A DNA stretch of 64,000 nucleotides from Sarcomyxa edulis (Eukaryota; Basidiomycota; Agaricomycetes; Agaricales; Mycenaceae), in NCBI GenBank assembly GCA_009761415.1, contig QUOL01000022.1:306517-370516 (forward strand), given 5' to 3'. The translations under genes and the position numbers were made by a program. Under the pieces are notes generated by a model that was not told the origin of the DNA, made no database searches, and saw only the letters and a list, made by a program, of their open reading frames with translations. This document shows positions 41,766-64,000 of the stretch, piece by piece. Every line of letters starts with the position of its first letter. Within the stretch, counting starts at the first letter, position 1.

Positions 41766-41795
41766 TGGAGTCCTAGTTCCTACTCTAATTAGGCC

Positions 41796-41817
41796 CTTAA
41801 CGGGGGGGCCCGTTAAG
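41796..41817. repeat. 22-bp inverted repeat (CTTAACGGG / CCCGTTAAG)
   Basis: Perfect 9-bp arms around a GGGG spacer, able to form a hairpin. It sits at the end of the coding-like fragment and before a GC-rich stretch (GCGCCGGCGCC near 41,930). It could be a transposon terminus or a transcription terminator, but no second copy is visible in the window. Confidence 0.45.
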
Positions 41818-42573
41818 AAGGGTCAGGTGTTTCGGCCCGTAGGCATCTGAAAAGTTGCGTTAGGGTCCCAGGACCTCGTGCCCAAGAGCATTTGCAAAAC
41901 ACCTCTGGTTTGAGCTCACAGCAGGCCCATAAGCGCCGGCGCCTAGCCAGCCATCGGGAGCCCCGGCGCCAACATGCTTGGATCCAAATTTTGACTGCGG
42001 CACGACGTTCAGGCAACGCAAAACACTATGTATACCCAGCGGAAAAGCCCATGTGCACTTCCTCACGTTGCAAAGCCTCCGTAAGTACTCTGATTCTGGT
42101 GCAGCCTTTCATCGAAGGGTTCTGCGCTTGTTTGGGGGGTGTTTTGGGGGGTGAAGGGCTCAAAATGAAGGTATATGATGCTATTGACAGACCCCACAAG
42201 GACTAACCAAACACCTCTCATCTAAGCACAAAACAAGCCAATGAGTGCTGAATCACCTAAGATCCAGCAGGAGGCCATGTCACAAGTAGGTCTAACATAC
42301 AAAATAGCTTTGTCACAGTGACATGCATGATCATACTATGTAGCCTTTGACAGGAAAACATATATTATAGATGCTCACCATCTTTGCATGTATACTGTAC
42401 AAATCTATCTAGTATGAACTAAGGTTAGGCATTAACAGAGCTCAACTGAGGTTAGGTATTTGCAACAGGTTTTATAAACAGACTACTCCTTCAAATAGCT
42501 GAGGTTAGGGCATGCATCAACATTGTATGAAACTGCAGCACTTAAGTGACAATGAAGACAGACCAGTACTCAA

Positions 42574-43198
42574 CCAAACTATACTTACAAAGTATTGTTT
42601 GGTCCATCACACATGTCACTCAAAAATAGATTTAATCACCAGGCACTTCATCAATCACATGAGTCTGATCAAAAATAGATTTGATCACCATCACCAAGTG
42701 CTTAAGAGCAAGCCAAACAATACTTTAAAAGTATAGTTTGGTCCATTACAAATGCTATTTAAAAATAGATTTGGGCACCAGGCACTTCATCAATCACATG
42801 AGTCTGATCAAAAATTACAGATGACCAAGAGCCAAACAATACTTTGGAAGTATAGTTTGGTCCATTACACATGTTATTCAAAAATAGATTTGATCACCAT
42901 CACCATGTGCTCAAGAGAGAGCCAAACAATACTATAGAAGTATAGTTTGGTCTATTACATATATGGTCCATCACATATATCAAGTAAAAATCAACATCAC
43001 CATAAATCAAAAAGGAACCAAACAATACTTGCAAAGTATTGTTTGGGTTGTAATATAAAATATTTAAAGATAAAATTGGCATCCAGGCACTTGACTCATG
43101 ACATAGCCCTGATCAGAGTCTAGATTTTGAGCTAAAATTAGATTTCCATTATTGGAAGTCAGATGAGGACCAAACAATAGTTGCTAAGTATAGTTTGT
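42574..43198. repeat. Six spaced ~29-bp hairpin repeats (CCAAACWATACTT...AAGTATWGTTTGG)
   Basis: Imperfect palindromes at 42574-42602, 42713-42741, 42832-42860, 42922-42950, 43018-43046 and 43170-43198. Each has arms CCAAAC-A/T-ATACTT and AAGTAT-A/T-GTTTGG around a 3-nt loop (ACA, TAA, TGG, TAG, GCA, GCT type). The intervening 70-125 bp carry shared words (CATCACACATG, AAAAATAGATTTGATCACC, CACCAGGCACTTCATCAATC), so this is a degenerate tandem array with period about 95-140 bp, directly upstream of the truncated zinc-finger gene. Confidence 0.85.
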
Positions 43199-43408
43199 TC
43201 CATCACAGATCATAGCTTAACATCAACTTGGGCTTCACTTTCTCACCACCATTATCAGCAAACTACAAACTTTGTGATCATCAAATCAGAAGCTCCTACA
43301 TCATGTAAGTACAACTTTGGTATATAAGAATATGATACTGACTATATAAGTAACACAAGGCCTCTTTGTCCAATTTGTAGGACAATTGTAGGTGCAGGAC
43401 CTACTGCA

Positions 43409-44580
43409 ATGAAAACTCACAATACAACACAACACCTATTGACTTATGGCTTGACTGCAAATGGTAAGATATATTTAGGAGTCATCAGCTGATTATGATT
43501 GATATGTTTTATAGATCAGTCTTTTATTCTGATCAGATCTAGTGTCACAAACACTGTGGAGTGTCCTTTTTCTGGATGCACAGAAACTTACTTGGATACA
43601 AGAATCCTCATCAAACATGTCAAAAAATGCCATGATGTCAAAACTATCCAGTTCAAGTATAATCCTGCCTCTATTGATGCTATGGAGAAAACTGCCTCCA
43701 TAAAGGAGGACATCATGGAGGTTGATGGATCAGTGGAAACCATGGTTCCATTGCCCACAAGTATTGGTCCACATCGTCAGGCTCATGATCACAATATCAG
43801 TGACCGACACCATCCCTATACTCGCATGTCACCAGCTCCTGGATATCATATGGTAGAAACAGTGGAACCTACATCGGAAAACGATCTTCCTGCTTGTAAG
43901 TGAATTGATTGAACATTGAATATTTTTTTACTGATTTGATAATAGCTCAATCACTCAATGGCCGCATATGCTACTTGGTCACTTCAACAATTCTTGCGGT
44001 GTTTTCACTTCGTATCCACAGCATTTTCAACACTATTCACTGCATGATTTGTGGGACAGCGTGGATTCCAAGCAGTTTGGTGGGGCATCTCAAAAGTCAT
44101 GGTTTTATCCCGACGACCGAACAATCCAAAGAGCTCCATACAGAACTAGTCCAACAGAATGTTGCTCACACTTCTGATATTCCAACTCCACTTCCCAATG
44201 GTCCACCTATCGAAGGGTTATCAATCAATCCACATGGACATTGCTGCAGATATTGCACATACTGCTGTCCATCATTTGCAGCATTTGCCGTTCACTGGTC
44301 TAACAAACATCGCAATATCACTATACCCGCACGTGAAGCTTTCACGCTTTGCGACATCCAAACGTTTTTCAGACCAAGTCCTCAGCGCTGGTTTAAAGTC
44401 AATGTGGCGCTGAGTCAGGTGCAAACACCTGATCCCTTTGCAATTTACTTGCAACAACAGGGTCCACTCTTTGCGAAAAGCAATTATGTTGCACCTGCTA
44501 CCCATCCTCGAGAAATTCCGCCTTTGCTTCAGGTCACCGGATGGCACCTTCATCTTCAGGAATATACTGAAGACAAGTCC
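43409..44580 (+). pseudogene. OrsD/C2H2 zinc-finger gene truncated by the telomeric array
   Basis: Exons 43409-43463, 43515-43895 and 43946 onward. It encodes three Cys2His2-type modules: CPFSGC...HVKKCH (43,560-43,635), CMICGTAW...HLKSH (44,040-44,105) and CRYCTYCC...HWSNKH (44,245-44,315), then PPLLQVTGWHLHLQEYTEDK. This resembles the OrsD zinc-finger module that in basidiomycetes often precedes RecQ-like helicase or recombinase domains of telomere-linked genes; that assignment is by pattern memory. The coding sequence is interrupted after codon Ser at 44580 by the constant end of repeat unit 1, and the frame runs on into the repeat to a stop at 44718 without further domain. No helicase domain is present, so the gene is probably a chromosome-end casualty. 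An upstream exon before 43409 is possible. Confidence 0.7.
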
Positions 44581-44901
44581 TATGTTTCTTATCCGGGAAT
44601 AGGGCGCCCTATTCCACTAACCCCGAGGTCATTTCAAGGCAAAACGGACGAAAAAGGTGACGGAATAGGGTGTTCAGTCACGAAATGTCACGGAATAGGG
44701 TGTTTTGTGACGGAATAGGGCGTTCGGTCACGGAATAGGGCGTCCTGTGACGGAATAGGGCGTTCTTTGACACAACAGTAGGAGCCAGAGCATTTTCCAA
44801 ATAAGACACTGGCTTGTTATTTGGAACATCCAAGAATGCAAAAGCGAGTACCAAGACGTGTCTGAGAGAAAAGTAAAAAATCATGGATCAAAGAGGGAAC
44901 C
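44581..44901 (+). repeat. Array unit 1 (321 bp, truncated)
   Basis: Most centromere-proximal unit, fused to the broken zinc-finger ORF. It ends in the spacer at GAGGGAACC. Duplicated as unit 15. Confidence 0.93.
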
Positions 44902-45183
44902 TATGTTTCTTATCCGGGAATAGGGCGCCCTATTCCACTAACCCCGAGGTCATTTCAAGGCAAAACGGACGAAAAAGGTGACGGAATAGGGCGTTCAGTC
45001 ACGAAATGTCACGGAATAGGGTGTTTTGTGACGGAATAGGGCGTTCGGTCACGGAATAGGGCGTCCTGTGACGGAATAGGGCGTTCTCTGACACAACAGT
45101 AGGAGCCAGAGCGTTTTTCAAATAAGACACTGGCTTGTTATTTGGAAGATCCAAGAATGCAAAAGCGAGTACCAAGACGTGTC
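44902..45183 (+). repeat. Array unit 2 (282 bp, truncated)
   Basis: Ends at GACGTGTC. Carries private variants TTCTCTGAC, GAGCGTTTTTC and GGAAGATCC, shared with unit 16. Confidence 0.93.
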
Positions 45184-46604
45184 TATGTTTCTTATCCGGG
45201 AATAGGGCGCCCTATTCCACTAACCCCGAGGTCATTTCAAGGCAAAACGGACGAAAAAGGTGACGGAATAGGGTGTTCAGTCACGAAATGTCACGGAATA
45301 GGGCGTTCGGTCACGGAATAGGGCGTCCTGTGACGGAATAGGGCGTTCTTTGACACAACAGTAGGAGCCAGAGCATTTTCCAAATAAGACACTGGCTTGT
45401 TATTTGGAACATCCAAGAATGCAAAAGCGAGTACCAAGACGTGTCTGAGAGAAAAGTAAAAAATCATGGATCAAAGAGGGAACCATCGAAGTGGAGAAGA
45501 CGTCAACCATACACCAAGACCAAAGTGAACGGTCAAAGCATCAGTTGCGACAAAAACGAAAAACCAACTCTGAGAGGCAAGACAAGAAGGCAATCAACCT
45601 TCAGCCGTGCAACCCCAAGATCGAGATGAAGTGTATGCATCAGAGACGCAAAAATATGAGATCAAAGAGGGAACCATCGAAGTGGACAGACCGATACAAG
45701 ACAAAGAACGGTCAAAACGCAAGTAAAACAGGGATGAAGCCGTTAGACCCGTAATCGGAATCAGCCGCTACCCCCCCAGCTGGGACGTTAGGGTTGGGGT
45801 AGTTAGGCGGTTAGGGTTAGTGTTAGGCGTTCGGGTTAGTGTTAGGTGTTAGGGTTGAGGATCATATAAAAAAAAAGTGCGAGTCAGTATCAGAGTCAGA
45901 GTGTCAGTGTCAGTGTCAGTATCAGTGCAGGTCAGAGTCAGCATCAGTGCAGACATCAAATCAGACAGTCAGTCAAGTCAGCAACCGACCTATCTCAAAC
46001 AAGTCAACGAGCGACCGTTTCAAAAATAAAATGTGCATCACAATCAATTGTGGATCAAGTCAACATAGTCAGTCAGACTCACATTCCACATAAGACGGCA
46101 CCCCACTATTTGGAAACTAAGTCACCAACACCAAGTCTAAGATCAATTGTGGATCAAGTCAACAGAGTCAGTCAGACCCACATTCCAAATAAGATGACGC
46201 CCCACTATTTGAAACTGAGTCACCAACACCAGTCACCAACACCAAGTCTAAGATGAATTGTGGATCAAGTCAACATAGTCAGACTCGCATTCCAAATAAG
46301 ACGACATCCCACTATTTGAAACTGAGTCACCAACACCAAGTCTGATGCAAGAACACTTAGGGTTACAATGTTTCAAATAAGATGACACTCCACTATTTGG
46401 AGCCATCGACACCAAGTGAGTCCAAACTAACCCCGAGTAACCCCGTGTGACCCCGAGTTCAAACGACATGGAAATAACCCCGTGTAACCCCGAGCTCAAA
46501 CAGCACAGAAATAACCCCGAGTAACCCCGAGCTCATTTACGACAAACGACAAGGAAACAACTCCAAGCTACCCCAGCGTCACGCTATGAGAAGCGACCGG
46601 ATCA
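45184..46604 (+). repeat. Array unit 3 (1,421 bp, full length)
   Basis: Runs to the CGACCGGATCA end. One 20-bp repeat fewer than the longest form; telomere-like tract at about 45,787-45,862 of the GCGTTCGGG subtype. Confidence 0.95.
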
Positions 46605-46984
46605 TATGTTTCTTATCCGGGAATAGGGCGCCCTATTCCACTAACCCCGAGGTCATTTCAAGGCAAAACGGACGAAAAAGGTGACGGAATAGGGTGTTCA
46701 GTCACGAAATGTCACGGAATAGGGCGTTCGGTCACGGAATAGGGCGTTCTTTGACACAACAGTAGGAGCCAGAGCATTTTCCAAATAAGACACTGGCTTG
46801 TTATTTGGAACATCCAAGAATGCAAAAGCGAGTACCAAGACGTGTCTGAGAGAAAAGTAAAAAATCATGGATCAAAGAGGGAACCATCGAAGTGGAGAAG
46901 ACGTCAACCATACACCAAGACCAAAGTGAACGGTCAAAGCATCAGTTGCGACAAAAACGAAAAACCAACTCTGAGAGGCAAGAC
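46605..46984 (+). repeat. Array unit 4 (380 bp, truncated)
   Basis: Has only three 20-bp repeats. Ends at GAGGCAAGAC. Confidence 0.93.
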
Positions 46985-48063
46985 TATGTTTCTTATCCGG
47001 GAATAGGGCGCCCTATTCCACTAACCCCGAGGTCATTTCAAGGCAAAACGGACGAAAAAGGTGACGGAATAGGGCGTTCAGTCACGAAATGTCACGGAAT
47101 AGGGTGTTTTGTGACGGAATAGGGCGTTCGGTCACGGAATAGGGCGTCCTGTGACGGAATAGGGCGTTCTTTGACACAACAGTAGGAGCCAGAGCATTTT
47201 CCAAATAAGACACTGGCTTGTTATTTGGAACATCCAAGAATGCAAAAGCGAGTACCAAGACGTGTCTGAGAGAAAAGTAAAAAATCATGGATCAAAGAGG
47301 GAACCATCGAAGTGGAGAAGACGTCAACCATACACCAAGACCAAAGTGAACGGTCAAAGCATCGGTTGCGACAAAAACGAAAAACCAACTCTGAGAGGCA
47401 AGACAAGAAGGCAATCAACCTTCAGCCGTGCAACCCCAAGATCGAGATGAAGTGTATGCATCAGAGACGCAAAAATATGAGATCAAAGAGGGAACCATCG
47501 AAGTGGACAGACCGATACAAGACAAAGAACGGTCAAAACGCAAGTAAAACAGGGATGAAGCCGTTAGACCCGTAATCGGAATCAGCCGCTACCCCCCCAG
47601 CTGGGACGTTAGGGTTGGGGTAGTTAGGCGGTTAGGGTTAGTGTTAGGCGTTAGGGTTAGTGTTAGGTGTTAGGGTTGAGGATCATATAAAAAAAAAGTG
47701 CGAGTTAGTATCAGAGTCAGAGTGTCAGTGTCAGTGTCAGTGCAGACATCAACTCACATACAAAATCAAGATAGTCAGACAGTCAGTCAAGTGAGCAACC
47801 GACCTATCTCAAACAAGTCAACGAGCGACCGTTTCAAAAATAAAATGTGCATCACAATCAATTGTGGATCAAGTCAACATAGTCAGTCAGACTCACATTC
47901 CAAATAAGATGACGCCCCACTATTTGGAAACTAAGTCACCAACACCAAGTCTGAGATCAATTGTGGATCAAGTCAACAGAGTCAGTCAGACCCACATTCC
48001 AAATAAGATGACGCCCCACTATTTGAAACTGAGTCACCAACACCAAGTCTGATGCAAGAACAC
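46985..48063 (+). repeat. Array unit 5 (1,079 bp, truncated)
   Basis: Telomere-like tract at about 47,607-47,680 (GCGTTAGGG subtype). Ends at GCAAGAACAC; the base after the break in an intact unit is also T, a 1-nt overlap with the next unit start. Confidence 0.93.
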
Positions 48064-48292
48064 TATGTTTCTTATCCGGGAATAGGGCGCCCTATTCCAC
48101 TAACCCCGAGGTCATTTCAAGGCAAAACGGACGAAAAAGGTGACGGAATAGGGCGTTCAGTCACGAAATGTCACGGAATAGGGTGTTTTGTGACGGAATA
48201 GGGCGTTCGGTCACGGAATAGGGCGTCCTGTGACGGAATAGGGCGTTCTTTGACACAACAGTAGGAGCCAGAGCATTTTCCAAATAAGACAC
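48064..48292 (+). repeat. Array unit 6 (229 bp, truncated)
   Basis: Ends within the hairpin at AATAAGACAC. This is the only unit of the first block missing from the second copy of the block. Confidence 0.93.
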
Positions 48293-49063
48293 TATGTTTC
48301 TTATCCGGGAATAGGGCGCCCTATTCCACTAACCCCGAGGTCATTTCAAGGCAAAACGGACGAAAAAGGTGACGGAATAGGGCGTTCAGTCACGAAATGT
48401 CACGGAATAGGGTGTTTTGTGACGGAATAGGGCGTTCGGTCACGGAATAGGGCGTCCTGTGACGGAATAGGGCGTTCTTTGACACAACAGTAGGAGCCAG
48501 AGCATTTTCCAAATAAGACACTGGCTTGTTATTTGGAACATCCAAGAATGCAAAAGCGAGTACCAAGACGTGTCTGAGAGAAAAGTAAAAAATCATGGAT
48601 CAAAGAGGGAACCATCGAAGTGGAGAAGACGTCAACCATACACCAAGACCAAAGTGAACGGTCAAAGCATCAGTTGCGACAAAAACGAAAAACCAACTCT
48701 GAGAGGCAAGACAAGAAGGCAATCAACCTTCAGCCGTGCAACCCCAAGATCGAGATGAAGTGTATGCATCAGAGACGCAAAAATATGAGATCAAAGAGGG
48801 AACCATCGAAGTGGACAGACCGATACAAAACAAAGAACGGTCAAAACGCAAGTAAAACAGGGATGAAGCCGTTAGACCCGTAATCGGAATCAGCCGCTAC
48901 CCCCCCAGCTGGGACGTTAGGGTTGGGGTAGTTAGGCGGTTAGGGTTAGTGTTAGGCGTTAGGGTTAGTGTTAGGTGTTAGGGTTGAGGATCATATAAAA
49001 AAAAAGTGCGAGTTAGTATCAGAGTCAGAGTGTCAGTGTCAGTGTCAGTGCAGACATCAACTC
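48293..49063 (+). repeat. Array unit 7 (771 bp, truncated)
   Basis: Contains the telomere-like tract (about 48,914-48,990) and ends in the CAGT-rich part at CATCAACTC. The private variant ACAAAACAAAG near 48,834 recurs in unit 20. Confidence 0.93.
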
Positions 49064-49106
49064 TATGTTTCTTATCCGGGAATAGGGCGCCCTATTCCAC
49101 TAACCC
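49064..49106 (+). repeat. Array unit 8 (43 bp, minimal)
   Basis: Only the left end, palindrome and ACTAACCC remain before the next unit starts. Confidence 0.93.
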
Positions 49107-50547
49107 TATGTTTCTTATCTGGGAATAGGGCGCCCTATTCCACTAACCCCGAGGTCATTTCAAGGCAAAACGGACGAAAAAGGTGACGGAATAGGGTGTT
49201 CAGTCACGAAATGTCACGGAATAGGGTGTTTTGTGACGGAATAGGGCGTTCGGTCACGGAATAGGGCGTCCTGTGACGGAATAGGGCGTTCTTTGACACA
49301 ACAGTAGGAGCCAGAGCATTTTCCAAATAAGACACTGGCTTGTTATTTGGAACATCCAAGAATGCAAAAGCGAGTACCAAGACGTGTCTGAGAGAAAAGT
49401 AAAAAATCATGGATCAAAGAGGGAACCATCGAAGTGGAGAAGACGTCAACCATACACCAAGACCAAAGTGAACGGTCAAAGCATCAGTTGCGACAAAAAC
49501 GAAAAACCAACTCTGAGAGGCAAGACAAGAAGGCAATCAACCTTCAGCCGTGCAACCCCAAGATCGAGATGAAGTGTATGCATCAGAGACGCAAAAATAT
49601 GAGATCAAAGAGGGAACCATCGAAGTGGACAGACCGATACAAGACAAAGAACGGTCAAAACGCAAGTAAAACAGGGATGAAGCCGTTAGACCCGTAATCG
49701 GAATCAGCCGCTACCCCCCCAGCTGGGACGTTAGGGTTGGGGTAGTTAGGCGGTTAGGGTTAGTGTTAGGCGTTCGGGTTAGTGTTAGGTGTTAGGGTTG
49801 AGGATCATATAAAAAAAAAGTGCGAGTCAGTATCAGAGTCAGAGTGTCAGTGTCAGTGTCAGTATCAGTGCAGGTCAGAGTCAGCATCAGTGCAGACATC
49901 AAATCAGACAGTCAGTCAAGTCAGCAACCGACCTATCTCAAACAAGTCAACGAGCGACCGTTTCAAAAATAAAATGTGCATCACAATCAATTGTGGATCA
50001 AGTCAACATAGTCAGTCAGACTCACATTCCACATAAGACGGCACCCCACTATTTGGAAACTAAGTCACCAACACCAAGTCTAAGATCAATTGTGGATCAA
50101 GTCAACAGAGTCAGTCAGACCCACATTCCAAATAAGATGACGCCCCACTATTTGAAACTGAGTCACCAACACCAGTCACCAACACCAAGTCTAAGATGAA
50201 TTGTGGATCAAGTCAACATAGTCAGACTCGCATTCCAAATAAGACGACATCCCACTATTTGAAACTGAGTCACCAACACCAAGTCTGATGCAAGAACACT
50301 TAGGGTTACAATGTTTCAAATAAGATGACACTCCACTATTTGGAGCCATCGACACCAAGTGAGTCCAAACTAACCCCGAGTAACCCCGTGTGACCCCGAG
50401 TTCAAACGACATGGAAATAACCCCGTGTAACCCCGAGCTCAAACAGCACAGAAATAACCCCGAGTAACCCCGAGCTCATTTACGACAAACGACAAGGAAA
50501 CAACTCCAAGCTACCCCAGCGTCACGCTATGAGAAGCGACCGGATCA
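49107..50547 (+). repeat. Array unit 9 (1,441 bp, full length, best reference copy)
   Basis: Five 20-bp repeats, telomere-like tract at about 49,728-49,803, ends CGACCGGATCA. The left end carries TTATCTGGG instead of TTATCCGGG, a variant shared with unit 22. Confidence 0.95.
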
Positions 50548-50829
50548 TATGTTTCTTATCCGGGAATAGGGCGCCCTATTCCACTAACCCCGAGGTCATT
50601 TCAAGGCAAAACGGACGAAAAAGGTGACGGAATAGGGCGTTCAGTCACGAAATGTCACGGAATAGGGTGTTTTGTGACGGAATAGGGCGTTCGGTCACGG
50701 AATAGGGCGTCCTGTGACGGAATAGGGCGTTCTTTGACACAACAGTAGGAGCCAGAGCATTTTCCAAATAAGACACTGGCTTGTTATTTGGAAGATCCAA
50801 GAATGCAAAAGCGAGTACCAAGACGTGTC
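50548..50829 (+). repeat. Array unit 10 (282 bp, truncated)
   Basis: Same breakpoint (GACGTGTC) as unit 2 and shares its GGAAGATCC variant, but has TTCTTTGAC. Confidence 0.93.
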
Positions 50830-51396
50830 TATGTTTCTTATCCGGGAATAGGGCGCCCTATTCCACTAACCCCGAGGTCATTTCAAGGCAAAACGGACGA
50901 AAAAGGTGACGGAATAGGGTGTTCAGTCACGAAATGTCACGGAATAGGGCGTTCGGTCACGGAATAGGGCGTCCTGTGACGGAATAGGGCGTTCTTTGAC
51001 ACAACAGTAGGAGCCAGAGCATTTTCCAAATAAGACACTGGCTTGTTATTTGGAACATCCAAGAATGCAAAAGCGAGTACCAAGACGTGTCTGAGAGAAA
51101 AGTAAAAAATCATGGATCAAAGAGGGAACCATCGAAGTGGAGAAGACGTCAACCATACACCAAGACCAAAGTGAACGGTCAAAGCATCAGTTGCGACAAA
51201 AACGAAAAACCAACTCTGAGAGGCAAGACAAGAAGGCAATCAACCTTCAGCCGTGCAACCCCAAGATCGAGATGAAGTGTATGCATCAGAGACGCAAAAA
51301 TATGAGATCAAAGAGGGAACCATCGAAGTGGACAGACCGATACAAGACAAAGAACGGTCAAAACGCAAGTAAAACAGGGATGAAGCCGTTAGACCC
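50830..51396 (+). repeat. Array unit 11 (567 bp, truncated)
   Basis: Four 20-bp repeats. Ends at GCCGTTAGACCC, just before the telomere-like tract. Confidence 0.93.
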
Positions 51397-52957
51397 TATG
51401 TTTCTTATCCGGGAATAGGGCGCCCTATTCCACTAACCCCGAGGTCATTTCAAGGCAAAACGGAGGAAAAAGGTGACGGAATAGGGCGTTCAGTCACGAA
51501 ATGTCACGGAATAGGGTGTTTTGTGACGGAATAGGGCGTTCGGTCACGGAATAGGGCGTCCTGTGACGGAATAGGGCGTTCTTTGACACAACAGTAGGAG
51601 CCAGAGCATTTTCCAAATAAGACACTGGCTTGTTATTTGGAACATCCAAGAATGCAAAAGCGAGTACCAAGACGTGTCTGAGAGAGACAAGTAAAAATCA
51701 GGGATCAAAGAGGGAACCAGAGCATTTTTCAAATAAGACACTGGCTTGTTATTTGGAAACATCAAAAAATGCAAAAGCGAGTGACAAGGCGTGTCTGAGT
51801 GAGAAGTAAAAATCAGGTATCAAAGAGGGAACCATCGAAGTGGAGAAGACGTCAACCATCCACCAAGCGCGAGACAAAGACCAAAGTGAACGGTCAACGC
51901 ATCAGTTGCGACAAAAACAGAGACTGACTCTGAGAGGCAAGACAAGAAGGCAGACCAACCTTCAGCCGTGCAACCCCAAGATGGAGATGAAGTGTATGCA
52001 TCAGAGACGCAAAAATATCAGATCAAAGAGCGAACCATCGAAGTGGACAGACCGATACAAGACGATCAAGACAACGAACGGTCAAAACGCAAGTGAAACA
52101 GGGATGAAGCCGTTAGACCCGTAATCGGAATCAGCCGCTACCCCCCCAGCTGGGACGTTAGGGTTGGGGTAGTTAGGCGGTTAGGGTTAGTGTTAGGCGT
52201 TAGGGTTAGTGTTAGGTGTTAGGGTTGAGGATCATATAAAAAAAAAGTGCGAGTTAGTATCAGAGTCAGAGTGTCAGTGTCAGTGTCAGTGCAGACATCA
52301 ACTCACATACAAAATCAAGATAGTCAGACAGTCAGTCAAGTGAGCAACCGACCTATCTCAAACAAGTCAACGAGCGACCCTTTCAAAAATAAAATGTGCA
52401 TCACAATCAATTGTGGATCAAGTCAACATAGTCAGTCAGACTCACATTCCAAATAAGATGACGCCCCACTATTTGGAAACTAAGTCACCAACACCAAGTC
52501 TGAGATCAATTGTGGATCAAGTCAACAGAGTCAGTCAGACCCACATTCCAAATAAGATGACGCCCCACTATTTGAAACTGAGTCACCAACACCAGTCACC
52601 AACACCAAGTCTAAGATGAATTGTGGATCAAGTCAACATAGTCAGACTCACATTCCAAATAAGACGACATCCCACTATTTGAAACTGAGTCACCAACACC
52701 AAGTCTGATGCAAGAACACTTAGGGTTACAATGTTTCAAATAAGATGACACTCCACTATTTGGAGCCATCGACACCAAGTGAGTCCAAACTAACCCCGAG
52801 TAACCCCGAGCTGAAACAACACGGAAATAACCCCGTGTAACCCCGAGCTTAAACAGCACAGAAATAACCCCGAGTAACCCCGAGCTCATTTACGACAAAC
52901 GACAAGGAAACAACTCCAAGCTACCCCAGCGTCACGCTATGAGAAGCGACCGGATCA
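51397..52957 (+). repeat. Array unit 12 (1,561 bp, longest variant)
   Basis: Longer because the hairpin segment (GAGCATTTT-CAAATAAGACACTG) is present twice. It carries ACGGAGGAAAA and AGAGAGACAAG variants that recur in unit 24. Confidence 0.93.
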
Positions 52958-52986
52958 TATGTTTCTTATCCGGGAATAGGGCGCCC
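52958..52986 (+). repeat. Array unit 13 (29 bp, minimal)
   Basis: Truncated inside the palindrome at GGGCGCCC. The intact continuation TAT overlaps the next unit's TAT. Confidence 0.92.
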
Positions 52987-54427
52987 TATGTTTCTTATCC
53001 GGGAATAGGGCGCCCTATTCCACTAACCCCGAGGTCATTTCAAGGCAAAACGGACGAAAAAGGTGACGGAATAGGGCGTTCAGTCACGAAATGTCACGGA
53101 ATAGGGTGTTTTGTGACGGAATAGGGCGTTCGGTCACGGAATAGGGCGTCCTGTGACGGAATAGGGCGTTCTTTGACACAACAGTAGGAGCCAGAGCATT
53201 TTCCAAATAAGACACTGGCTTGTTATTTGGAACATCCAAGAATGCAAAAGCGAGTACCAAGACGTGTCTGAGAGAAAAGTAAAAAATCATGGATCAAAGA
53301 GGGAACCATCGAAGTGGAAAAGACGTCAACCATACACCAAGACCAAAGTGAACGGTCAAAGCATCAGTTGCGACAAAAACGAAAAACCAACTCTGAGAGG
53401 CAAGACAAGAAGGCAATCAACCTTCAGCCGTGCAACCCCAAGATCGAGATGAAGTGTATGCATCAGAGACGCAAAAATATGAGATCAAAGAGGGAACCAT
53501 CGAAGTGGACAGACCGATACAAGACAAAGAACGGTCAAAACGCAAGTGAAACAGGGATGAAGCCGTTAGACCCGTAATCGGAATCAGCCGCTACCCCCCC
53601 AGCTGGGACGTTAGGGTTGGGGTAGTTAGGCGGTTAGGGTTAGTGTTAGGCGTTCGGGTTAGTGTTAGGTGTTAGGGTTGAGGATCATATAAAAAAAAAG
53701 TGCGAGTCAGTATCAGAGTCAGAGTGTCAGTGTCAGTGTCAGTATCAGTGCAGGTCAGAGTCAGCATCAGTGCAGACATCAAATCAGACAGTCAGTCAAG
53801 TCAGCAACCGACCTATCTCAAACAAGTCAACGAGCGACCGTTTCAAAAATAAAATGTGCATCACAATCAATTGTGGATCAAGTCAACATAGTCAGTCAGA
53901 CTCACATTCCACATAAGACGGCACCCCACTATTTGGAAACTAAGTCACCAACACCAAGTCTAAGATCAATTGTGGATCAAGTCAACAGAGTCAGTCAGAC
54001 CCACATTCCAAATAAGATGACGCCCCACTATTTGAAACTGAGTCACCAACACCAGTCACCAACACCAAGTCTAAGATGAATTGTGGATCAAGTCAACATA
54101 GTCAGACTCGCATTCCAAATAAGACGACATCCCACTATTTGAAACTGAGTCACCAACACCAAGTCTGATGCAAGAACACTTAGGGTTACAATGTTTCAAA
54201 TAAGATGACACTCCACTATTTGGAGCCATCGACACCAAGTGAGTCCAAACTAACCCCGAGTAACCCCGTGTGACCCCGAGTTCAAACGACATGGAAATAA
54301 CCCCGTGTAACCCCGAGCTCAAACAGCACAGAAATAACCCCGAGTAACCCCGAGCTCATTTACGACAAACGACAAGGAAACAACTCCAAGCTACCCCAGC
54401 GTCACGCTATGAGAAGCGACCGGATCA
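52987..54427 (+). repeat. Array unit 14 (1,441 bp, full length)
   Basis: Full unit of the GCGTTCGGG subtype, ending CGACCGGATCA. Last unit before the repeated block. Confidence 0.95.
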
Positions 54428-54748
54428 TATGTTTCTTATCCGGGAATAGGGCGCCCTATTCCACTAACCCCGAGGTCATTTCAAGGCAAAACGGACGAAA
54501 AAGGTGACGGAATAGGGTGTTCAGTCACGAAATGTCACGGAATAGGGTGTTTTGTGACGGAATAGGGCGTTCGGTCACGGAATAGGGCGTCCTGTGACGG
54601 AATAGGGCGTTCTTTGACACAACAGTAGGAGCCAGAGCATTTTCCAAATAAGACACTGGCTTGTTATTTGGAACATCCAAGAATGCAAAAGCGAGTACCA
54701 AGACGTGTCTGAGAGAAAAGTAAAAAATCATGGATCAAAGAGGGAACC
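54428..54748 (+). repeat. Array unit 15 (321 bp)
   Basis: Counterpart of unit 1, offset 9,847 bp. First unit of the second block. Confidence 0.93.
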
Positions 54749-55030
54749 TATGTTTCTTATCCGGGAATAGGGCGCCCTATTCCACTAACCCCGAGGTCAT
54801 TTCAAGGCAAAACGGACGAAAAAGGTGACGGAATAGGGCGTTCAGTCACGAAATGTCACGGAATAGGGTGTTTTGTGACGGAATAGGGCGTTCGGTCACG
54901 GAATAGGGCGTCCTGTGACGGAATAGGGCGTTCTCTGACACAACAGTAGGAGCCAGAGCGTTTTTCAAATAAGACACTGGCTTGTTATTTGGAAGATCCA
55001 AGAATGCAAAAGCGAGTACCAAGACGTGTC
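54749..55030 (+). repeat. Array unit 16 (282 bp)
   Basis: Counterpart of unit 2, with the same private variants. Confidence 0.93.
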
Positions 55031-56451
55031 TATGTTTCTTATCCGGGAATAGGGCGCCCTATTCCACTAACCCCGAGGTCATTTCAAGGCAAAACGGACG
55101 AAAAAGGTGACGGAATAGGGTGTTCAGTCACGAAATGTCACGGAATAGGGCGTTCGGTCACGGAATAGGGCGTCCTGTGACGGAATAGGGCGTTCTTTGA
55201 CACAACAGTAGGAGCCAGAGCATTTTCCAAATAAGACACTGGCTTGTTATTTGGAACATCCAAGAATGCAAAAGCGAGTACCAAGACGTGTCTGAGAGAA
55301 AAGTAAAAAATCATGGATCAAAGAGGGAACCATCGAAGTGGAGAAGACGTCAACCATACACCAAGACCAAAGTGAACGGTCAAAGCATCAGTTGCGACAA
55401 AAACGAAAAACCAACTCTGAGAGGCAAGACAAGAAGGCAATCAACCTTCAGCCGTGCAACCCCAAGATCGAGATGAAGTGTATGCATCAGAGACGCAAAA
55501 ATATGAGATCAAAGAGGGAACCATCGAAGTGGACAGACCGATACAAGACAAAGAACGGTCAAAACGCAAGTAAAACAGGGATGAAGCCGTTAGACCCGTA
55601 ATCGGAATCAGCCGCTACCCCCCCAGCTGGGACGTTAGGGTTGGGGTAGTTAGGCGGTTAGGGTTAGTGTTAGGCGTTCGGGTTAGTGTTAGGTGTTAGG
55701 GTTGAGGATCATATAAAAAAAAAGTGCGAGTCAGTATCAGAGTCAGAGTGTCAGTGTCAGTGTCAGTATCAGTGCAGGTCAGAGTCAGCATCAGTGCAGA
55801 CATCAAATCAGACAGTCAGTCAAGTCAGCAACCGACCTATCTCAAACAAGTCAACGAGCGACCGTTTCAAAAATAAAATGTGCATCACAATCAATTGTGG
55901 ATCAAGTCAACATAGTCAGTCAGACTCACATTCCACATAAGACGGCACCCCACTATTTGGAAACTAAGTCACCAACACCAAGTCTAAGATCAATTGTGGA
56001 TCAAGTCAACAGAGTCAGTCAGACCCACATTCCAAATAAGATGACGCCCCACTATTTGAAACTGAGTCACCAACACCAGTCACCAACACCAAGTCTAAGA
56101 TGAATTGTGGATCAAGTCAACATAGTCAGACTCGCATTCCAAATAAGACGACATCCCACTATTTGAAACTGAGTCACCAACACCAAGTCTGATGCAAGAA
56201 CACTTAGGGTTACAATGTTTCAAATAAGATGACACTCCACTATTTGGAGCCATCGACACCAAGTGAGTCCAAACTAACCCCGAGTAACCCCGTGTGACCC
56301 CGAGTTCAAACGACATGGAAATAACCCCGTGTAACCCCGAGCTCAAACAGCACAGAAATAACCCCGAGTAACCCCGAGCTCATTTACGACAAACGACAAG
56401 GAAACAACTCCAAGCTACCCCAGCGTCACGCTATGAGAAGCGACCGGATCA
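55031..56451 (+). repeat. Array unit 17 (1,421 bp, full length)
   Basis: Counterpart of unit 3. Confidence 0.93.
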
Positions 56452-56831
56452 TATGTTTCTTATCCGGGAATAGGGCGCCCTATTCCACTAACCCCGAGGT
56501 CATTTCAAGGCAAAACGGACGAAAAAGGTGACGGAATAGGGTGTTCAGTCACGAAATGTCACGGAATAGGGCGTTCGGTCACGGAATAGGGCGTTCTTTG
56601 ACACAACAGTAGGAGCCAGAGCATTTTCCAAATAAGACACTGGCTTGTTATTTGGAACATCCAAGAATGCAAAAGCGAGTACCAAGACGTGTCTGAGAGA
56701 AAAGTAAAAAATCATGGATCAAAGAGGGAACCATCGAAGTGGAGAAGACGTCAACCATACACCAAGACCAAAGTGAACGGTCAAAGCATCAGTTGCGACA
56801 AAAACGAAAAACCAACTCTGAGAGGCAAGAC
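56452..56831 (+). repeat. Array unit 18 (380 bp)
   Basis: Counterpart of unit 4. Confidence 0.93.
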
Positions 56832-57910
56832 TATGTTTCTTATCCGGGAATAGGGCGCCCTATTCCACTAACCCCGAGGTCATTTCAAGGCAAAACGGAC
56901 GAAAAAGGTGACGGAATAGGGCGTTCAGTCACGAAATGTCACGGAATAGGGTGTTTTGTGACGGAATAGGGCGTTCGGTCACGGAATAGGGCGTCCTGTG
57001 ACGGAATAGGGCGTTCTTTGACACAACAGTAGGAGCCAGAGCATTTTCCAAATAAGACACTGGCTTGTTATTTGGAACATCCAAGAATGCAAAAGCGAGT
57101 ACCAAGACGTGTCTGAGAGAAAAGTAAAAAATCATGGATCAAAGAGGGAACCATCGAAGTGGAGAAGACGTCAACCATACACCAAGACCAAAGTGAACGG
57201 TCAAAGCATCGGTTGCGACAAAAACGAAAAACCAACTCTGAGAGGCAAGACAAGAAGGCAATCAACCTTCAGCCGTGCAACCCCAAGATCGAGATGAAGT
57301 GTATGCATCAGAGACGCAAAAATATGAGATCAAAGAGGGAACCATCGAAGTGGACAGACCGATACAAGACAAAGAACGGTCAAAACGCAAGTAAAACAGG
57401 GATGAAGCCGTTAGACCCGTAATCGGAATCAGCCGCTACCCCCCCAGCTGGGACGTTAGGGTTGGGGTAGTTAGGCGGTTAGGGTTAGTGTTAGGCGTTA
57501 GGGTTAGTGTTAGGTGTTAGGGTTGAGGATCATATAAAAAAAAAGTGCGAGTTAGTATCAGAGTCAGAGTGTCAGTGTCAGTGTCAGTGCAGACATCAAC
57601 TCACATACAAAATCAAGATAGTCAGACAGTCAGTCAAGTGAGCAACCGACCTATCTCAAACAAGTCAACGAGCGACCGTTTCAAAAATAAAATGTGCATC
57701 ACAATCAATTGTGGATCAAGTCAACATAGTCAGTCAGACTCACATTCCAAATAAGATGACGCCCCACTATTTGGAAACTAAGTCACCAACACCAAGTCTG
57801 AGATCAATTGTGGATCAAGTCAACAGAGTCAGTCAGACCCACATTCCAAATAAGATGACGCCCCACTATTTGAAACTGAGTCACCAACACCAAGTCTGAT
57901 GCAAGAACAC
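56832..57910 (+). repeat. Array unit 19 (1,079 bp)
   Basis: Counterpart of unit 5, including the private GCATCGGTTGCG variant. Confidence 0.93.
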
Positions 57911-58681
57911 TATGTTTCTTATCCGGGAATAGGGCGCCCTATTCCACTAACCCCGAGGTCATTTCAAGGCAAAACGGACGAAAAAGGTGACGGAATAGGG
58001 CGTTCAGTCACGAAATGTCACGGAATAGGGTGTTTTGTGACGGAATAGGGCGTTCGGTCACGGAATAGGGCGTCCTGTGACGGAATAGGGCGTTCTTTGA
58101 CACAACAGTAGGAGCCAGAGCATTTTCCAAATAAGACACTGGCTTGTTATTTGGAACATCCAAGAATGCAAAAGCGAGTACCAAGACGTGTCTGAGAGAA
58201 AAGTAAAAAATCATGGATCAAAGAGGGAACCATCGAAGTGGAGAAGACGTCAACCATACACCAAGACCAAAGTGAACGGTCAAAGCATCAGTTGCGACAA
58301 AAACGAAAAACCAACTCTGAGAGGCAAGACAAGAAGGCAATCAACCTTCAGCCGTGCAACCCCAAGATCGAGATGAAGTGTATGCATCAGAGACGCAAAA
58401 ATATGAGATCAAAGAGGGAACCATCGAAGTGGACAGACCGATACAAAACAAAGAACGGTCAAAACGCAAGTAAAACAGGGATGAAGCCGTTAGACCCGTA
58501 ATCGGAATCAGCCGCTACCCCCCCAGCTGGGACGTTAGGGTTGGGGTAGTTAGGCGGTTAGGGTTAGTGTTAGGCGTTAGGGTTAGTGTTAGGTGTTAGG
58601 GTTGAGGATCATATAAAAAAAAAGTGCGAGTTAGTATCAGAGTCAGAGTGTCAGTGTCAGTGTCAGTGCAGACATCAACTC
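57911..58681 (+). repeat. Array unit 20 (771 bp)
   Basis: Counterpart of unit 7. The 229-bp unit expected before it is absent, so the offset falls to 9,618 bp. Confidence 0.93.
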
Positions 58682-58724
58682 TATGTTTCTTATCCGGGAA
58701 TAGGGCGCCCTATTCCACTAACCC
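58682..58724 (+). repeat. Array unit 21 (43 bp, minimal)
   Basis: Counterpart of unit 8. Confidence 0.93.
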
Positions 58725-60165
58725 TATGTTTCTTATCTGGGAATAGGGCGCCCTATTCCACTAACCCCGAGGTCATTTCAAGGCAAAACGGACGAAAAAG
58801 GTGACGGAATAGGGTGTTCAGTCACGAAATGTCACGGAATAGGGTGTTTTGTGACGGAATAGGGCGTTCGGTCACGGAATAGGGCGTCCTGTGACGGAAT
58901 AGGGCGTTCTTTGACACAACAGTAGGAGCCAGAGCATTTTCCAAATAAGACACTGGCTTGTTATTTGGAACATCCAAGAATGCAAAAGCGAGTACCAAGA
59001 CGTGTCTGAGAGAAAAGTAAAAAATCATGGATCAAAGAGGGAACCATCGAAGTGGAGAAGACGTCAACCATACACCAAGACCAAAGTGAACGGTCAAAGC
59101 ATCAGTTGCGACAAAAACGAAAAACCAACTCTGAGAGGCAAGACAAGAAGGCAATCAACCTTCAGCCGTGCAACCCCAAGATCGAGATGAAGTGTATGCA
59201 TCAGAGACGCAAAAATATGAGATCAAAGAGGGAACCATCGAAGTGGACAGACCGATACAAGACAAAGAACGGTCAAAACGCAAGTAAAACAGGGATGAAG
59301 CCGTTAGACCCGTAATCGGAATCAGCCGCTACCCCCCCAGCTGGGACGTTAGGGTTGGGGTAGTTAGGCGGTTAGGGTTAGTGTTAGGCGTTCGGGTTAG
59401 TGTTAGGTGTTAGGGTTGAGGATCATATAAAAAAAAAGTGCGAGTCAGTATCAGAGTCAGAGTGTCAGTGTCAGTGTCAGTATCAGTGCAGGTCAGAGTC
59501 AGCATCAGTGCAGACATCAAATCAGACAGTCAGTCAAGTCAGCAACCGACCTATCTCAAACAAGTCAACGAGCGACCGTTTCAAAAATAAAATGTGCATC
59601 ACAATCAATTGTGGATCAAGTCAACATAGTCAGTCAGACTCACATTCCACATAAGACGGCACCCCACTATTTGGAAACTAAGTCACCAACACCAAGTCTA
59701 AGATCAATTGTGGATCAAGTCAACAGAGTCAGTCAGACCCACATTCCAAATAAGATGACGCCCCACTATTTGAAACTGAGTCACCAACACCAGTCACCAA
59801 CACCAAGTCTAAGATGAATTGTGGATCAAGTCAACATAGTCAGACTCGCATTCCAAATAAGACGACATCCCACTATTTGAAACTGAGTCACCAACACCAA
59901 GTCTGATGCAAGAACACTTAGGGTTACAATGTTTCAAATAAGATGACACTCCACTATTTGGAGCCATCGACACCAAGTGAGTCCAAACTAACCCCGAGTA
60001 ACCCCGTGTGACCCCGAGTTCAAACGACATGGAAATAACCCCGTGTAACCCCGAGCTCAAACAGCACAGAAATAACCCCGAGTAACCCCGAGCTCATTTA
60101 CGACAAACGACAAGGAAACAACTCCAAGCTACCCCAGCGTCACGCTATGAGAAGCGACCGGATCA
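58725..60165 (+). repeat. Array unit 22 (1,441 bp, full length)
   Basis: Counterpart of unit 9, with the same TTATCTGGG left-end variant. End of the second block. Confidence 0.93.
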
Positions 60166-61566
60166 TATGTTTCTTATCCGGGAATAGGGCGCCCTATTCC
60201 ACTAACCCCGAGGTCATTTCAAGGCAAAACGGACGAAAAAGGTGACGGAATAGGGTGTTCAGTCACGAAATGTCACGGAATAGGGCGTTCGGTCACGGAA
60301 TAGGGCGTTCTTTGACACAACAGTAGGAGCCAGAGCATTTTCCAAATAAGACACTGGCTTGTTATTTGGAACATCCAAGAATGCAAAAGCGAGTACCAAG
60401 ACGTGTCTGAGAGAAAAGTAAAAAATCATGGATCAAAGAGGGAACCATCGAAGTGGAGAAGACGTCAACCATACACCAAGACCAAAGTGAACGGTCAAAG
60501 CATCAGTTGCGACAAAAACGAAAAACCAACTCTGAGAGGCAAGACAAGAAGGCAATCAACCTTCAGCCGTGCAACCCCAAGATCGAGATGAAGTGTATGC
60601 ATCAGAGACGCAAAAATATGAGATCAAAGAGGGAACCATCGAAGTGGACAGACCGATACAAGACAAAGAACGGTCAAAACGCAAGTAAAACAGGGATGAA
60701 GCCGTTAGACCCGTAATCGGAATCAGCCGCTACCCCCCCAGCTGGGACGTTAGGGTTGGGGTAGTTAGGCGGTTAGGGTTAGTGTTAGGCGTTCGGGTTA
60801 GTGTTAGGTGTTAGGGTTGAGGATCATATAAAAAAAAAGTGCGAGTCAGTATCAGAGTCAGAGTGTCAGTGTCAGTGTCAGTATCAGTGCAGGTCAGAGT
60901 CAGCATCAGTGCAGACATCAAATCAGACAGTCAGTCAAGTCAGCAACCGACCTATCTCAAACAAGTCAACGAGCGACCGTTTCAAAAATAAAATGTGCAT
61001 CACAATCAATTGTGGATCAAGTCAACATAGTCAGTCAGACTCACATTCCACATAAGACGGCACCCCACTATTTGGAAACTAAGTCACCAACACCAAGTCT
61101 AAGATCAATTGTGGATCAAGTCAACAGAGTCAGTCAGACCCACATTCCAAATAAGATGACGCCCCACTATTTGAAACTGAGTCACCAACACCAGTCACCA
61201 ACACCAAGTCTAAGATGAATTGTGGATCAAGTCAACATAGTCAGACTCGCATTCCAAATAAGACGACATCCCACTATTTGAAACTGAGTCACCAACACCA
61301 AGTCTGATGCAAGAACACTTAGGGTTACAATGTTTCAAATAAGATGACACTCCACTATTTGGAGCCATCGACACCAAGTGAGTCCAAACTAACCCCGAGT
61401 AACCCCGTGTGACCCCGAGTTCAAACGACGTGGAAATAACCCCGTGTAACCCCGAGCTCAAACAGCACAGAAATAACCCCGAGTAACCCCGAGCTCATTT
61501 ACGACAAACGACAAGGAAACAACTCCAAGCTACCCCAGCGTCACGCTATGAGAAGCGACCGGATCA
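60166..61566 (+). repeat. Array unit 23 (1,401 bp, full length)
   Basis: Only three 20-bp repeats, like unit 4, but continues to the CGACCGGATCA end. Confidence 0.94.
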
Positions 61567-62523
61567 TATGTTTCTTATCCGGGAATAGGGCGCCCTATTC
61601 CACTAACCCCGAGGTCATTTCAAGGCAAAACGGAGGAAAAAGGTGACGGAATAGGGCGTTCAGTCACGAAATGTCACGGAATAGGGTGTTTTGTGACGGA
61701 ATAGGGCGTTCGGTCACGGAATAGGGCGTCCTGTGACGGAATAGGGCGTTCTTTGACACAACAGTAGGAGCCAGAGCATTTTCCAAATAAGACACTGGCT
61801 TGTTATTTGGAACATCCAAGAATGCAAAAGCGAGTACCAAGACGTGTCTGAGAGAGACAAGTAAAAATCAGGGATCAAAGAGGGAACCAGAGCATTTTTC
61901 AAATAAGACACTGGCTTGTTATTTGGAAACATCAAAAAATGCAAAAGCAAGTGACAAGGCGTGTCTGAGTGAGAAGTAAAAATCAGGTATCAAAGAGGGA
62001 ACCATCGAAGTGGAGAAGACGTCAACCATCCACCAAGCGCGAGACAAAGACCAAAGTGAACGGTCAACGCATCAGTTGCGACAAAAACAGAGACTGACTC
62101 TGAGAGGCAAGACAAGAAGGCAGACCAACCTTCAGCCGTGCAACCCCAAGATGGAGATGAAGTGTATGCATCAGAGACGCAAAAATATCAGATCAAAGAG
62201 CGAACCATCGAAGTGGACAGACCGATACAAGACGATCAAGACAACGAACGGTCAAAACGCAAGTGAAACAGGGATGAAGCCGTTAGACCCGTAATCGGAA
62301 TCAGCCGCTACCCCCCCAGCTGGGACGTTAGGGTTGGGGTAGTTAGGCGGTTAGGGTTAGTGTTAGGCGTTAGGGTTAGTGTTAGGTGTTAGGGTTGAGG
62401 ATCATATAAAAAAAAAGTGCGAGTTAGTATCAGAGTCAGAGTGTCAGTGTCAGTGTCAGTGCAGACATCAACTCACATACAAAATCAAGATAGTCAGACA
62501 GTCAGTCAAGTGAGCAACCGACC
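61567..62523 (+). repeat. Array unit 24 (957 bp, truncated)
   Basis: Same subtype as unit 12 (ACGGAGGAAAA, doubled hairpin segment). Ends at GCAACCGACC; the intact continuation TAT overlaps the next unit start by 3 nt. Confidence 0.93.
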
Positions 62524-63035
62524 TATGTTTCTTATCCGGGAATAGGGCGCCCTATTCCACTAACCCCGAGGTCATTTCAAGGCAAAACGGACGAAAAAGG
62601 TGACAGAATAGGGCGTTCAGTCACGAAATGTCACGGAATAGGGTGTTTTGTGACGGAATAGGGCGTTCGGTCACGGAATAGGGCGTCCTGTGACGGAATA
62701 GGGCGTTCTTTGACACAACAGTAGGAGCCAGAGCATTTTCCAAATAAGACACTGGCTTGTTATTTGGAACATCCAAGAATGCAAAAGCGAGTACCAAGAC
62801 GTGTCTGAGAGAAAAATAAAAAATCATGGATCAAAGAGGGAACCATCGAAGTGGAGAAGACGTCAACCATACACCAAGACCAAAGTGAACGGGCAAAGCA
62901 TCAGTTGCGACAAAAACGAAAAACCAACTCTGAGAGGCAAGACAAGAAGGCAATCAACCTTCAGCCGTGCAACCCCAAGATCGAGATGAAGTGTATGCAT
63001 CAGAGACGCAAAAATATGAGATCAAAGAGGGAACC
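62524..63035 (+). repeat. Array unit 25 (512 bp, truncated)
   Basis: Ends at the second GAGGGAACC of the spacer. Carries single-base variants (TGACAGAATAGGG, GAACGGGCAAAG) not seen in other units. Confidence 0.93.
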
Positions 63036-63064
63036 TATGTTTCTTATCCGGGAATAGGGCGCCC
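63036..63064 (+). repeat. Array unit 26 (29 bp, minimal)
   Basis: Identical to unit 13: cut at GGGCGCCC inside the palindrome, but in a different neighbourhood. Confidence 0.92.
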
Positions 63065-63886
63065 TATGTTTCTTATCCGGGAATAGGGCGCCCTATTCCA
63101 CTAACCCCGAGGTCATTTCAAGGCAAAACGGACGAAAAAGGTGACGGAATAGGGTGTTCAGTCACGAAATGTCACGGAATAGGGTGTTTTGTGACGGAAT
63201 AGGGCGTTCGGTCACGGAATAGGGCGTCCTGTGACGGAATAGGGCGTTCTCTGACACAACAGTAGGAGCCAGAGCATTTTTCAAATAAGACACTGGCTTG
63301 TTATTTGGAACATCCAAGAATGCAAAAGCGACTACCAAGACGTGTCTGAGAGAGACAAGTAAAAATCAGGGATCAAAGAGGGAACCAGAGCATTTTTCAA
63401 ATAAGACACTGGCTTGTTATTTGGAAACATCAAAAAACGCAAAAGCGAGTGACAAGACGTGTCTGAGTGAGAAGTAAAAATCAGGTATCAAAGAGGGAAC
63501 CATCGAAGTGGAGAAGACGTCAACCATCCACCAAGCGCGAGACAAAGACCAAAGTGAACGGTCAACGCATCAGTTGCGACAAAAACAGAGACTGACTCTG
63601 AGAGGCAAGACAAGAAGGCAGACCAACCTTCAGCCGTGCAACCCCAAGATCGAGATGAAGTGTATGCATCAGAGACGCAAAAATATGAGATCAAAGAGCG
63701 AACCATCGAAGTGGACAGACCGATACAAGACGATCAAGACAAAGAACGGTCAAAACGCAAGTGAAACAGGGATGAAGCCGTTAGACCCGTAATCGGAATC
63801 AGCCGCTACCCCCCCAGCTGGGACGTTAGGGTTGGGGTAGTTAGGCGGTTAGGGTTAGTGTTAGGCGTTAGGGTTAGTGTTAGGTG
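63065..63886 (+). repeat. Array unit 27 (terminal unit, passes into the telomere)
   Basis: Has the doubled hairpin segment. Its degenerate tract (about 63,827-63,886) passes at GTGTTAGGG directly into perfect TTAGGG repeats, where internal copies have GTTGAGGATC. Confidence 0.95.
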
Positions 63887-64000
63887 TTAGGGTTAGGGTT
63901 AGGGTTAGGGTTAGGGTTAGGGTTAGGGTTAGGGTTAGGGTTAGGGTTAGGGTTAGGGTTAGGGTTAGGGTTAGGGTTAGGGTTAGGGTTAGGGTTAGGG
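63887..64000 (+). repeat. Telomere, 19 perfect TTAGGG repeats
   Basis: 114 bp of uninterrupted TTAGGG, reading 5' to 3' towards the window end as expected for the G-rich strand of a right chromosome end. The sequence stops in phase at base 64000, so the true tract may be longer. Confidence 0.99.

Follow-up and report, generated by a model that had tools for sequence, protein, structure and literature searches.

Stacked hairpin-ended element families suggest a so far undescribed mode of DNA addition to chromosome ends in Sarcomyxa edulis

How can DNA be added again and again to a chromosome end, in one direction and by one exact edge? The question is raised by a stretch of 64,000 nucleotides from Sarcomyxa edulis (C15:306517-370516, on contig QUOL01000022.1 of assembly GCA_009761415.1, which comprises 35.6 Mb in 40 contigs), here called the window, which holds a head-to-tail array of a non-coding element (family A) with a fixed centromere-side end and variable telomere-side ends. 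The window is itself a chromosome end closing in (TTAGGG)19, and TTAGGG tracts lie at or near several other contig ends among the matches listed. We found that family A belongs to a set of stacked, hairpin-ended families, one of which (element E) carries a telomere-linked helicase (TLH) gene; these families suggest that DNA is joined to chromosome ends in a manner not yet described. The window features on which the argument draws are:

41781..44580, + strand: element E, distally truncated, with CC before its fixed end at 41781 (E end pattern at C15:348297, and sequence)
41796..41817, + strand: hairpin of the E fixed end, CTTAACGGG-GGGG-CCCGTTAAG (folding of this variant, covariation among five E variants)
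43909..44580, + strand: remains of the TLH gene, an open reading frame (ORF) with an OrsD domain at about 44035-44310 (OrsD 7e-9, C15:350551-350826; ORF)
44581..63886, + strand: family-A array of 27 units (fixed-end search)
44581, 44902, 45184, 46605, 46985, 48064, 48293, 49064, 49107, + strand: family-A fixed ends 1-9
50548, 50830, 51397, 52958, 52987, 54428, 54749, 55031, 56452, + strand: family-A fixed ends 10-18
56832, 57911, 58682, 58725, 60166, 61567, 62524, 63036, 63065, + strand: family-A fixed ends 19-27
44596..44615, + strand: palindrome GGAATAGGGCGCCCTATTCC of unit 1, at the same offset in other units that reach that far
52987..54427, + strand: example of a full-length A unit, 1441 bp, with GGATCA before the next TATG
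44581..50547, + strand: block found again, 100% identical, at 54428-60165; the copy at 44581 has an additional unit of 229 bp
63822 to about 63886, + strand: telomere-like seed block in the last unit, where the TTAGGG repeats start
63887..64000, + strand: (TTAGGG)n telomere, 19 repeats up to the contig end

The chromosome proper stops at 41780, and the array was found to start at 41781 with element E rather than at 44581 as given in the first-pass annotation, which had been made from the letters alone. The helicase part of the window TLH gene is missing, the gene being cut at 44580 by the first family-A unit. All 27 fixed ends claimed for family A were recovered, as TATGTTTCTTATC occurs 27 times at 44581-63065, nowhere else in the window and never reversed. 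A start identical in every unit holds for the 25 that begin TATGTTTCTTATCC and fails for units 9 and 22, which begin ...TCT; the length range of 29-1441 bp had to be widened to 29-1561 bp for the 26 measurable units. Genome-wide, the 25-nt A end pattern has 256 exact copies and the reversed control pattern has 0, so the fixed end is not a product of chance. The A units of the window contain no long ORF (ORFs of at least 200 aa considered), and there are about four iteron-like 20-bp direct repeats per unit, TGTGACGGAATAGGGCGTTC (window 44686-44771 and equivalents), in numbers varying between units. Because units 1-5 and 7-9 (44581-50547) are 100% identical to units 15-22 (54428-60165), with unit 6 extra in the first copy, the 27 units do not represent 27 independent events; the window has 12 distinct truncated junctions, including the one in the TLH gene. 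The identical 5.7-kb blocks reflect either a recent block duplication or an assembly duplication. Separately, tandem truncated units sharing one truncation point were seen on C4 (family B, period 329), C3 (E, period 287) and C10 (A, 229 bp), and this looks more like amplification after joining than like a series of separate joining events.

The way in which units begin was followed in sampled stretches of 197,869 bases on seven contigs (C2, C3, C4, C7, C9, C10 and C12). Among 61 A-homologous islands, those of at least 150 bp start at unit base 1 with two exceptions, of which one is an alignment gap immediately behind an intact fixed end and the other a stretch of telomere repeats. Most of the small islands (42-145 bp) represent a telomere-like block that is shared, and two more lie at the tip of C4, which looks poor. 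As had been claimed, the cut-off distal parts do not reappear in the sampled arrays, and there are no mid-unit restarts. Four probes within the first 100 nt found no A copy without an intact start (0/123, 0/111, 0/109 and 0/111), and equivalent probes found no nibbled start in families B, C, D, E and G (0 of 2-9 each). The element end is therefore exact and the target end free, a combination that speaks against nested insertion and leaves plain microhomology repair improbable. Intact starts and a single orientation support the proposed cycles, in which the terminus is lost and a new copy is then joined through its fixed end, and we regard it as well supported, and very probable, that these are directional, end-attaching elements. 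Replacement of the telomere is a different matter and was not borne out: family A contains a degenerate telomere block, and the window still ends in TTAGGG repeats that start inside the block of the last unit. Similar blocks lie behind other families, one of 78 bp at 96% identity behind a G end on C9 and others at 78-87%.

The array had been read as the work of one element, and at least eight families are involved. Seven further families, found downstream of truncated A units in the sampled stretches, begin like A, with C, then TA, a spacer of 10-14 nt and a palindrome or hairpin. Their starts are:

Family B: CTATCCTTCTGATCC
Family C: CTATCTTCTTGG
Family D: CTAGTATTATTACC
Family E: CTACTCTAATTAGG
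Family F: CTAATAACTTAG
Family G: CTAATACCTTAG
Family H: CTACTAGTATTCC

Families F and G are mutually related. A hairpin folds in seven of the eight families, its stem beginning 14-18 nt from the C, and is weak in D; the z-score against shuffled sequence is below -3 for B, C, E, G and H, -1.96 for A, -1.62 for F and -0.79 for D. Five E variants alter both sides of the stem in 4 of 10 pairs, and these compensatory changes suggest that the folded single strand is probably the relevant form of the fixed end. The families stack on each other's truncated distal ends, all in one orientation, and no reverse-orientation match was found for any family in the sampled stretches. Across the whole genome, E ends face away from the nearer contig end at 32 of 33 places, the lone exception being C29:36752, on a contig of 87 kb in which the A copies extend as far as the right end; A copies are on the + strand in right-end arrays and on the - strand in left-end arrays among the matches listed (100 of the 256, plus the 79 not preceded by C).

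Joints were compared across 166 fixed ends in the sample, which fall into 85 distinct classes, two of them being the full-length A joint with 38 copies. In the window, the report of C at truncated and A at full-length joints was confirmed (20 C and 7 A, all seven of the latter reading GGATCA|TATG). With C40 added to the sample, C precedes the fixed end in 83 of 84 distinct truncated junctions; the remaining one has T and reads ...TTAGGC-T-TATG, with the C one base further back. Genome-wide, 177 of the 256 A ends follow C and the remaining 79 follow A (78) or T (1), and all 37 of the 78 A-preceded ends that were inspected are full-length joints. The C derives from the target, being present in all 64 classes that have an uninterrupted counterpart (in 3 as a minority allele); the other 21 classes have no such counterpart. 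Counted from this C, the overlap in the 64 classes is 1 nt in 30, 2 in 21, 3 in 8, 4 in 3 and 5 in 2, hence 1-5 nt and never 0, in place of the 0-3 nt noted at first. Neither an A- nor a T-tract was seen at the 27 window joints or in the 85 classes, nor telomere repeats at any family A-H joint read, in agreement with the first reading of the locus. One array junction, the sole one observed to break the pattern of CTA and hairpin, lies at C7:717112 (L038), where a truncated A unit is followed by AGTTGCATTCC..., without that start, and later by the 3' part of a TLH-like sequence.

Bases beyond the C also matter. T follows the target C in 34 of 64 classes versus 47/373 (12.6%) in the A unit (p 8e-15), or versus an assumed background of 20% (p 4e-9; in TLH, T follows C in 25%), p-values that are upper limits of the evidence because classes can share history via recombination; an A following CT falls short of significance (13/34, p 0.06). 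When 34 distinct places were mapped onto one A unit as reference (at most 3 mismatches), target use climbed with likeness to CCTA: a lone C without a following T was used at 8 of 234 sites, a lone C then T at 6 of 43, CC without a following T at 15 of 90 and CCT at 3 of 4, CCTA among these at 2 of 2. Two mapped places lack a C in the reference: one is the full-length end, and at the other a C is present in other copies. A second C is invariant before D (5/5) and E (9/9) in distinct junctions, CC precedes E at 33/33 places in the whole genome, and two E copies use the identical CC|TTCAGC spot in different A alleles (L057, L060). CCTA occurs within the telomere C strand CCCTAA, which is either a clue or chance.

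A search for a longer, autonomous copy encoding a reverse transcriptase (RT), Rep or recombinase had been proposed; a longer, coding copy does exist in sister family E, and the gene it carries is the TLH gene. In the five E copies read far enough (C3, C4 twice, C7 and C12), it lies downstream and reads toward the telomere. The C3 copy gives Pfam matches to OrsD (7.7e-11), DEAD (1.9e-10) and Helicase_C (2.7e-9), its helicase is RecQ by PDB sequence comparison, and the layout is an OrsD zinc-finger domain, an unknown middle domain and a RecQ-like helicase. No Rep (HUH) domain was found in the scanned ORFs of the window and E, TLH pieces giving OrsD, DEAD and Helicase_C only. Genome-wide, the middle region was found in 14 close copies and in 2 more with 23% identity, and OrsD occurs at 19 places. 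Each of the 14 close copies lies in a subtelomeric array or a small contig, with an E end upstream of it at a distance of 3491-4459 bases, so that assignment of TLH to element E is well supported by position. TLH copies are cut at various points by the next element; the C3 gene is cut at its stop codon, with CTA shared, and the C13 gene reaches its stop, TTAGGG beginning 427 bases later. A second, distant TLH type (~23-25% identity in the middle domain) was also seen near contig ends (C30:44090-45364, C30:2954-4227 and C7:771992-773264).

Tyrosine recombinases have the catalytic signature R, K, (H)xxR, Y. By eye, the TLH middle domain contains like residues in this order, R176 (GQDPRSSE), K209, R295xxR298, G-H329 and Y338, the last nine residues after H329; a paralogue with 23% identity retains R176, K209, R295, R298 and Y338. 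The motif pattern, which was written after the sequence had been seen, fits 10 of 20000 shuffles, and a looser pattern fits 1007. The Crypton tetrad is given as R-H-R-Y in the accessible part of one report (PMC3212892).

Because the families share end architecture and the C rule, we infer that E with its TLH gene is the autonomous member and that A-D and F-H are hitchhikers using its machinery. That the arrays were built by such an E/TLH-based directional end-joining system, with the others hitchhiking, we rate as an even chance. Under this reading, elements would become attached to worn or broken chromosome ends. The sequence itself shows that the single fixed end of each family sits intact, always in the same direction, on the 3' side of a C (CC being better and CCTA best) in whatever sequence the chromosome had eroded back to; the distal part of the old end is gone, and the new copy was later truncated in turn and another element, often of a different family, joined to it. 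By a weaker argument, the TLH protein would do the joining: its helicase might open the chromosome end, and its middle domain, with the tyrosine-recombinase-like motifs, might recognise the hairpin and transfer it to the C. Telomerase would rebuild TTAGGG on the telomere-like blocks inside the elements, and homologous recombination would shuffle and duplicate array blocks. Only tentatively do we go further and suggest that TLH genes encode the enzymes behind a new class of mobile element at chromosome ends, which would join a hairpin-marked end to the 3' side of CC(TA) at uncapped ends without RT or Rep and would be exploited by several non-coding families. This would be a selfish rebuilding of chromosome ends that needs no telomerase for the joining itself.

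Several observations weigh against this reading. The 38 full-length A joints of the sample, with GGATCA or GGATTA before TATG, break the C rule; in 30 of the 64 testable junctions the overlap is the C alone; and all data come from a single assembly. The link between TLH and the element ends is indirect, and we put the hypothesis that TLH performs the joining at somewhat less than an even chance, and that it does so as a recombinase lower still. H329 is not kept in the 23%-identity paralogue, and box II has Arg where the catalytic His is usual. For the middle domain, with shallow alignments throughout, neither Pfam nor PDB sequence comparison gave recombinase support and hhalign scored 17.3 versus 10.8-20.2 for 20 column shuffles (effective number 1.6), and predicted structures had mean pLDDT values of 33.7 and 32.1, which is unusable.

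The rival that survives best, which we consider rather unlikely, is template-primed synthesis, in which an RNA or single-stranded DNA with the 3' end hairpin-spacer-TAG(G) would be copied by an RT acting in trans or by telomerase. The eroded 3' end ...(C)C(TA) would serve as primer, its C pairing with the terminal G, in the manner of HeT-A without a coding copy. This accounts for an essential C with further CCTA matches helping, as expected if the terminal base must pair, and for a fixed start with a variable distal end; consecutive full-length units could moreover derive from one long template. RT could be supplied from the 111 places in the genome with an RVT_1 match, of which only two lie among arrays (C12:14552 and C38:58201); we judged these to be dispersed retrotransposons, and none was shown to share the fixed end; they lend no support to the earlier suggestion of reverse transcription. 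The template would also have to be antisense to the TLH gene of E, no RT is specifically located in the arrays, the joints lack A- and T-tracts, and Rfam shows no known RNA motif there.

Ordinary repair is an improbable source of the arrays. Here microhomology-mediated end joining or break-induced replication with other subtelomeres would produce the joints, the hairpin end being a fragile site, which agrees with overlaps of 1-5 nt and with the clear inter-unit recombination seen in the 100% block copy. Such repair would, however, be expected to trim both partners and to use other overlaps, and the element end is never nibbled (0/123 A copies, first probe), C is always in the overlap and the same rule holds in eight families.

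Still less probable is a Helitron origin of the fixed end, under which a Rep/helicase would have placed a Helitron 3' terminus (hairpin, ~12 nt, CTRR) and the shortened copies would be truncated on their 5' side. On the opposite strand, the ends run hairpin-spacer-NTAG, and Helitrons likewise have a hairpin ~12 nt from a (C)TAG end and, in the autonomous form, a helicase gene; the hairpin is found in seven of the eight families here, and CTAG in D alone. The likeness extends to the Pleurotus helitron hairpin and CT[A/T]G end described in the accessible part of PMC4289320. Helitron_like_N matches occur at 33 places in the genome, 9 of them within 30 kb of a contig end. Helitrons, however, insert between A and T with a Rep-Pif1-type protein, whereas here a C adjoins the end, the helicase is RecQ-like, the position is terminal and the orientation uniform, most families end in NTAG and not CTRR, and the scanned window and E ORFs contain no Rep domain. 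Insertion at A|T with a two-sided target, as in Helitrons, disagrees with the C at 83 of 84 distinct junctions and with the distal target not resuming in the sampled arrays. A Crypton-like insertion with target on both sides was likewise rejected, as the distal target does not reappear in the sampled arrays. Nested insertion or an assembly artefact is barely credible: the 5.7-kb block duplicated at 100% identity could be a mis-joined repeat, but cut-off distal parts do not reappear in the sampled arrays and the same rule is found on many contig ends and in eight families.

Among known systems, HeT-A/TART/TAHRE of Drosophila are non-LTR retrotransposons with oligo(A) joints that replace telomerase. 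Their arrays resemble those described here in being head-to-tail, in one orientation, with a centromere-side fixed end and distal truncation, and differ from them in that ours have TTAGGG telomeres, no RT in the units, a hairpin end and the C rule. Integron cassettes and their attC sites combine a folded hairpin site, a minimal target with one essential base and one-way head-to-tail arrays; they differ in being bacterial, internal to the chromosome and flanked by a distal target that is kept, and the recombinase here is a candidate. Coprina/Athena Penelope-like elements and MoTeR encode RT and have telomere repeats at their joints. The same is stated for FoTeR in the part of PMC12857005 that was available. 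Coprina/Athena, MoTeR and FoTeR attach at fungal (or rotifer) chromosome ends and leave truncated copies, as the present elements do, but in the A array neither RT nor telomere repeats at joints were seen.

The closest likeness in gene content is to fungal TLH/tlh elements (UTASa and UTASb of Ustilago maydis), which carry subtelomeric, multicopy, often truncated RecQ-like helicase genes; E carries such a gene and family A does not. In the accessible parts of the respective papers, OrsD is reported together with UTASb (PMC10532341), full and truncated TLH-containing regions are reported in Fusarium (PMC12857005) and subtelomeric RecQ genes, some full and some truncated, in Agaricus bisporus (PMC7473861), and a fixed hairpin end, a joining rule and gene-less sister families are not described there. 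Hairpin-ended TLH elements or such a rule were not found in the literature judged by title and abstract, with most subscription papers and all bioRxiv preprints outside this coverage. Many fungi have TLH genes at their chromosome ends, and no function has been agreed for them; if end-attaching elements carry these genes as cargo or are driven by them, this would explain where they lie, how many copies there are and why they are truncated. In a fungus that has TTAGGG telomeres as well, the arrays preserve a legible history of how termini were lost and repaired, and the CC(TA) rule and the hairpin offer a simple assay.

Two minor observations concern neighbouring sequence. At four places (C3:1226378, C9:652286, C9:677330 and C9:679921; L034, L044, L045), internal (TTAGGG)4-11 tracts, which are preceded by three different sequences, lead into a sequence that begins TGGTTCAGAAGTCTGCTCC; this is possibly an element attaching to telomere repeats. 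Further inward in the window, three related long ORFs lie at 18418-19950, 23185-24642 and 30194-31666, which resemble fungal kinase-type (FunK1) genes and may belong with them.

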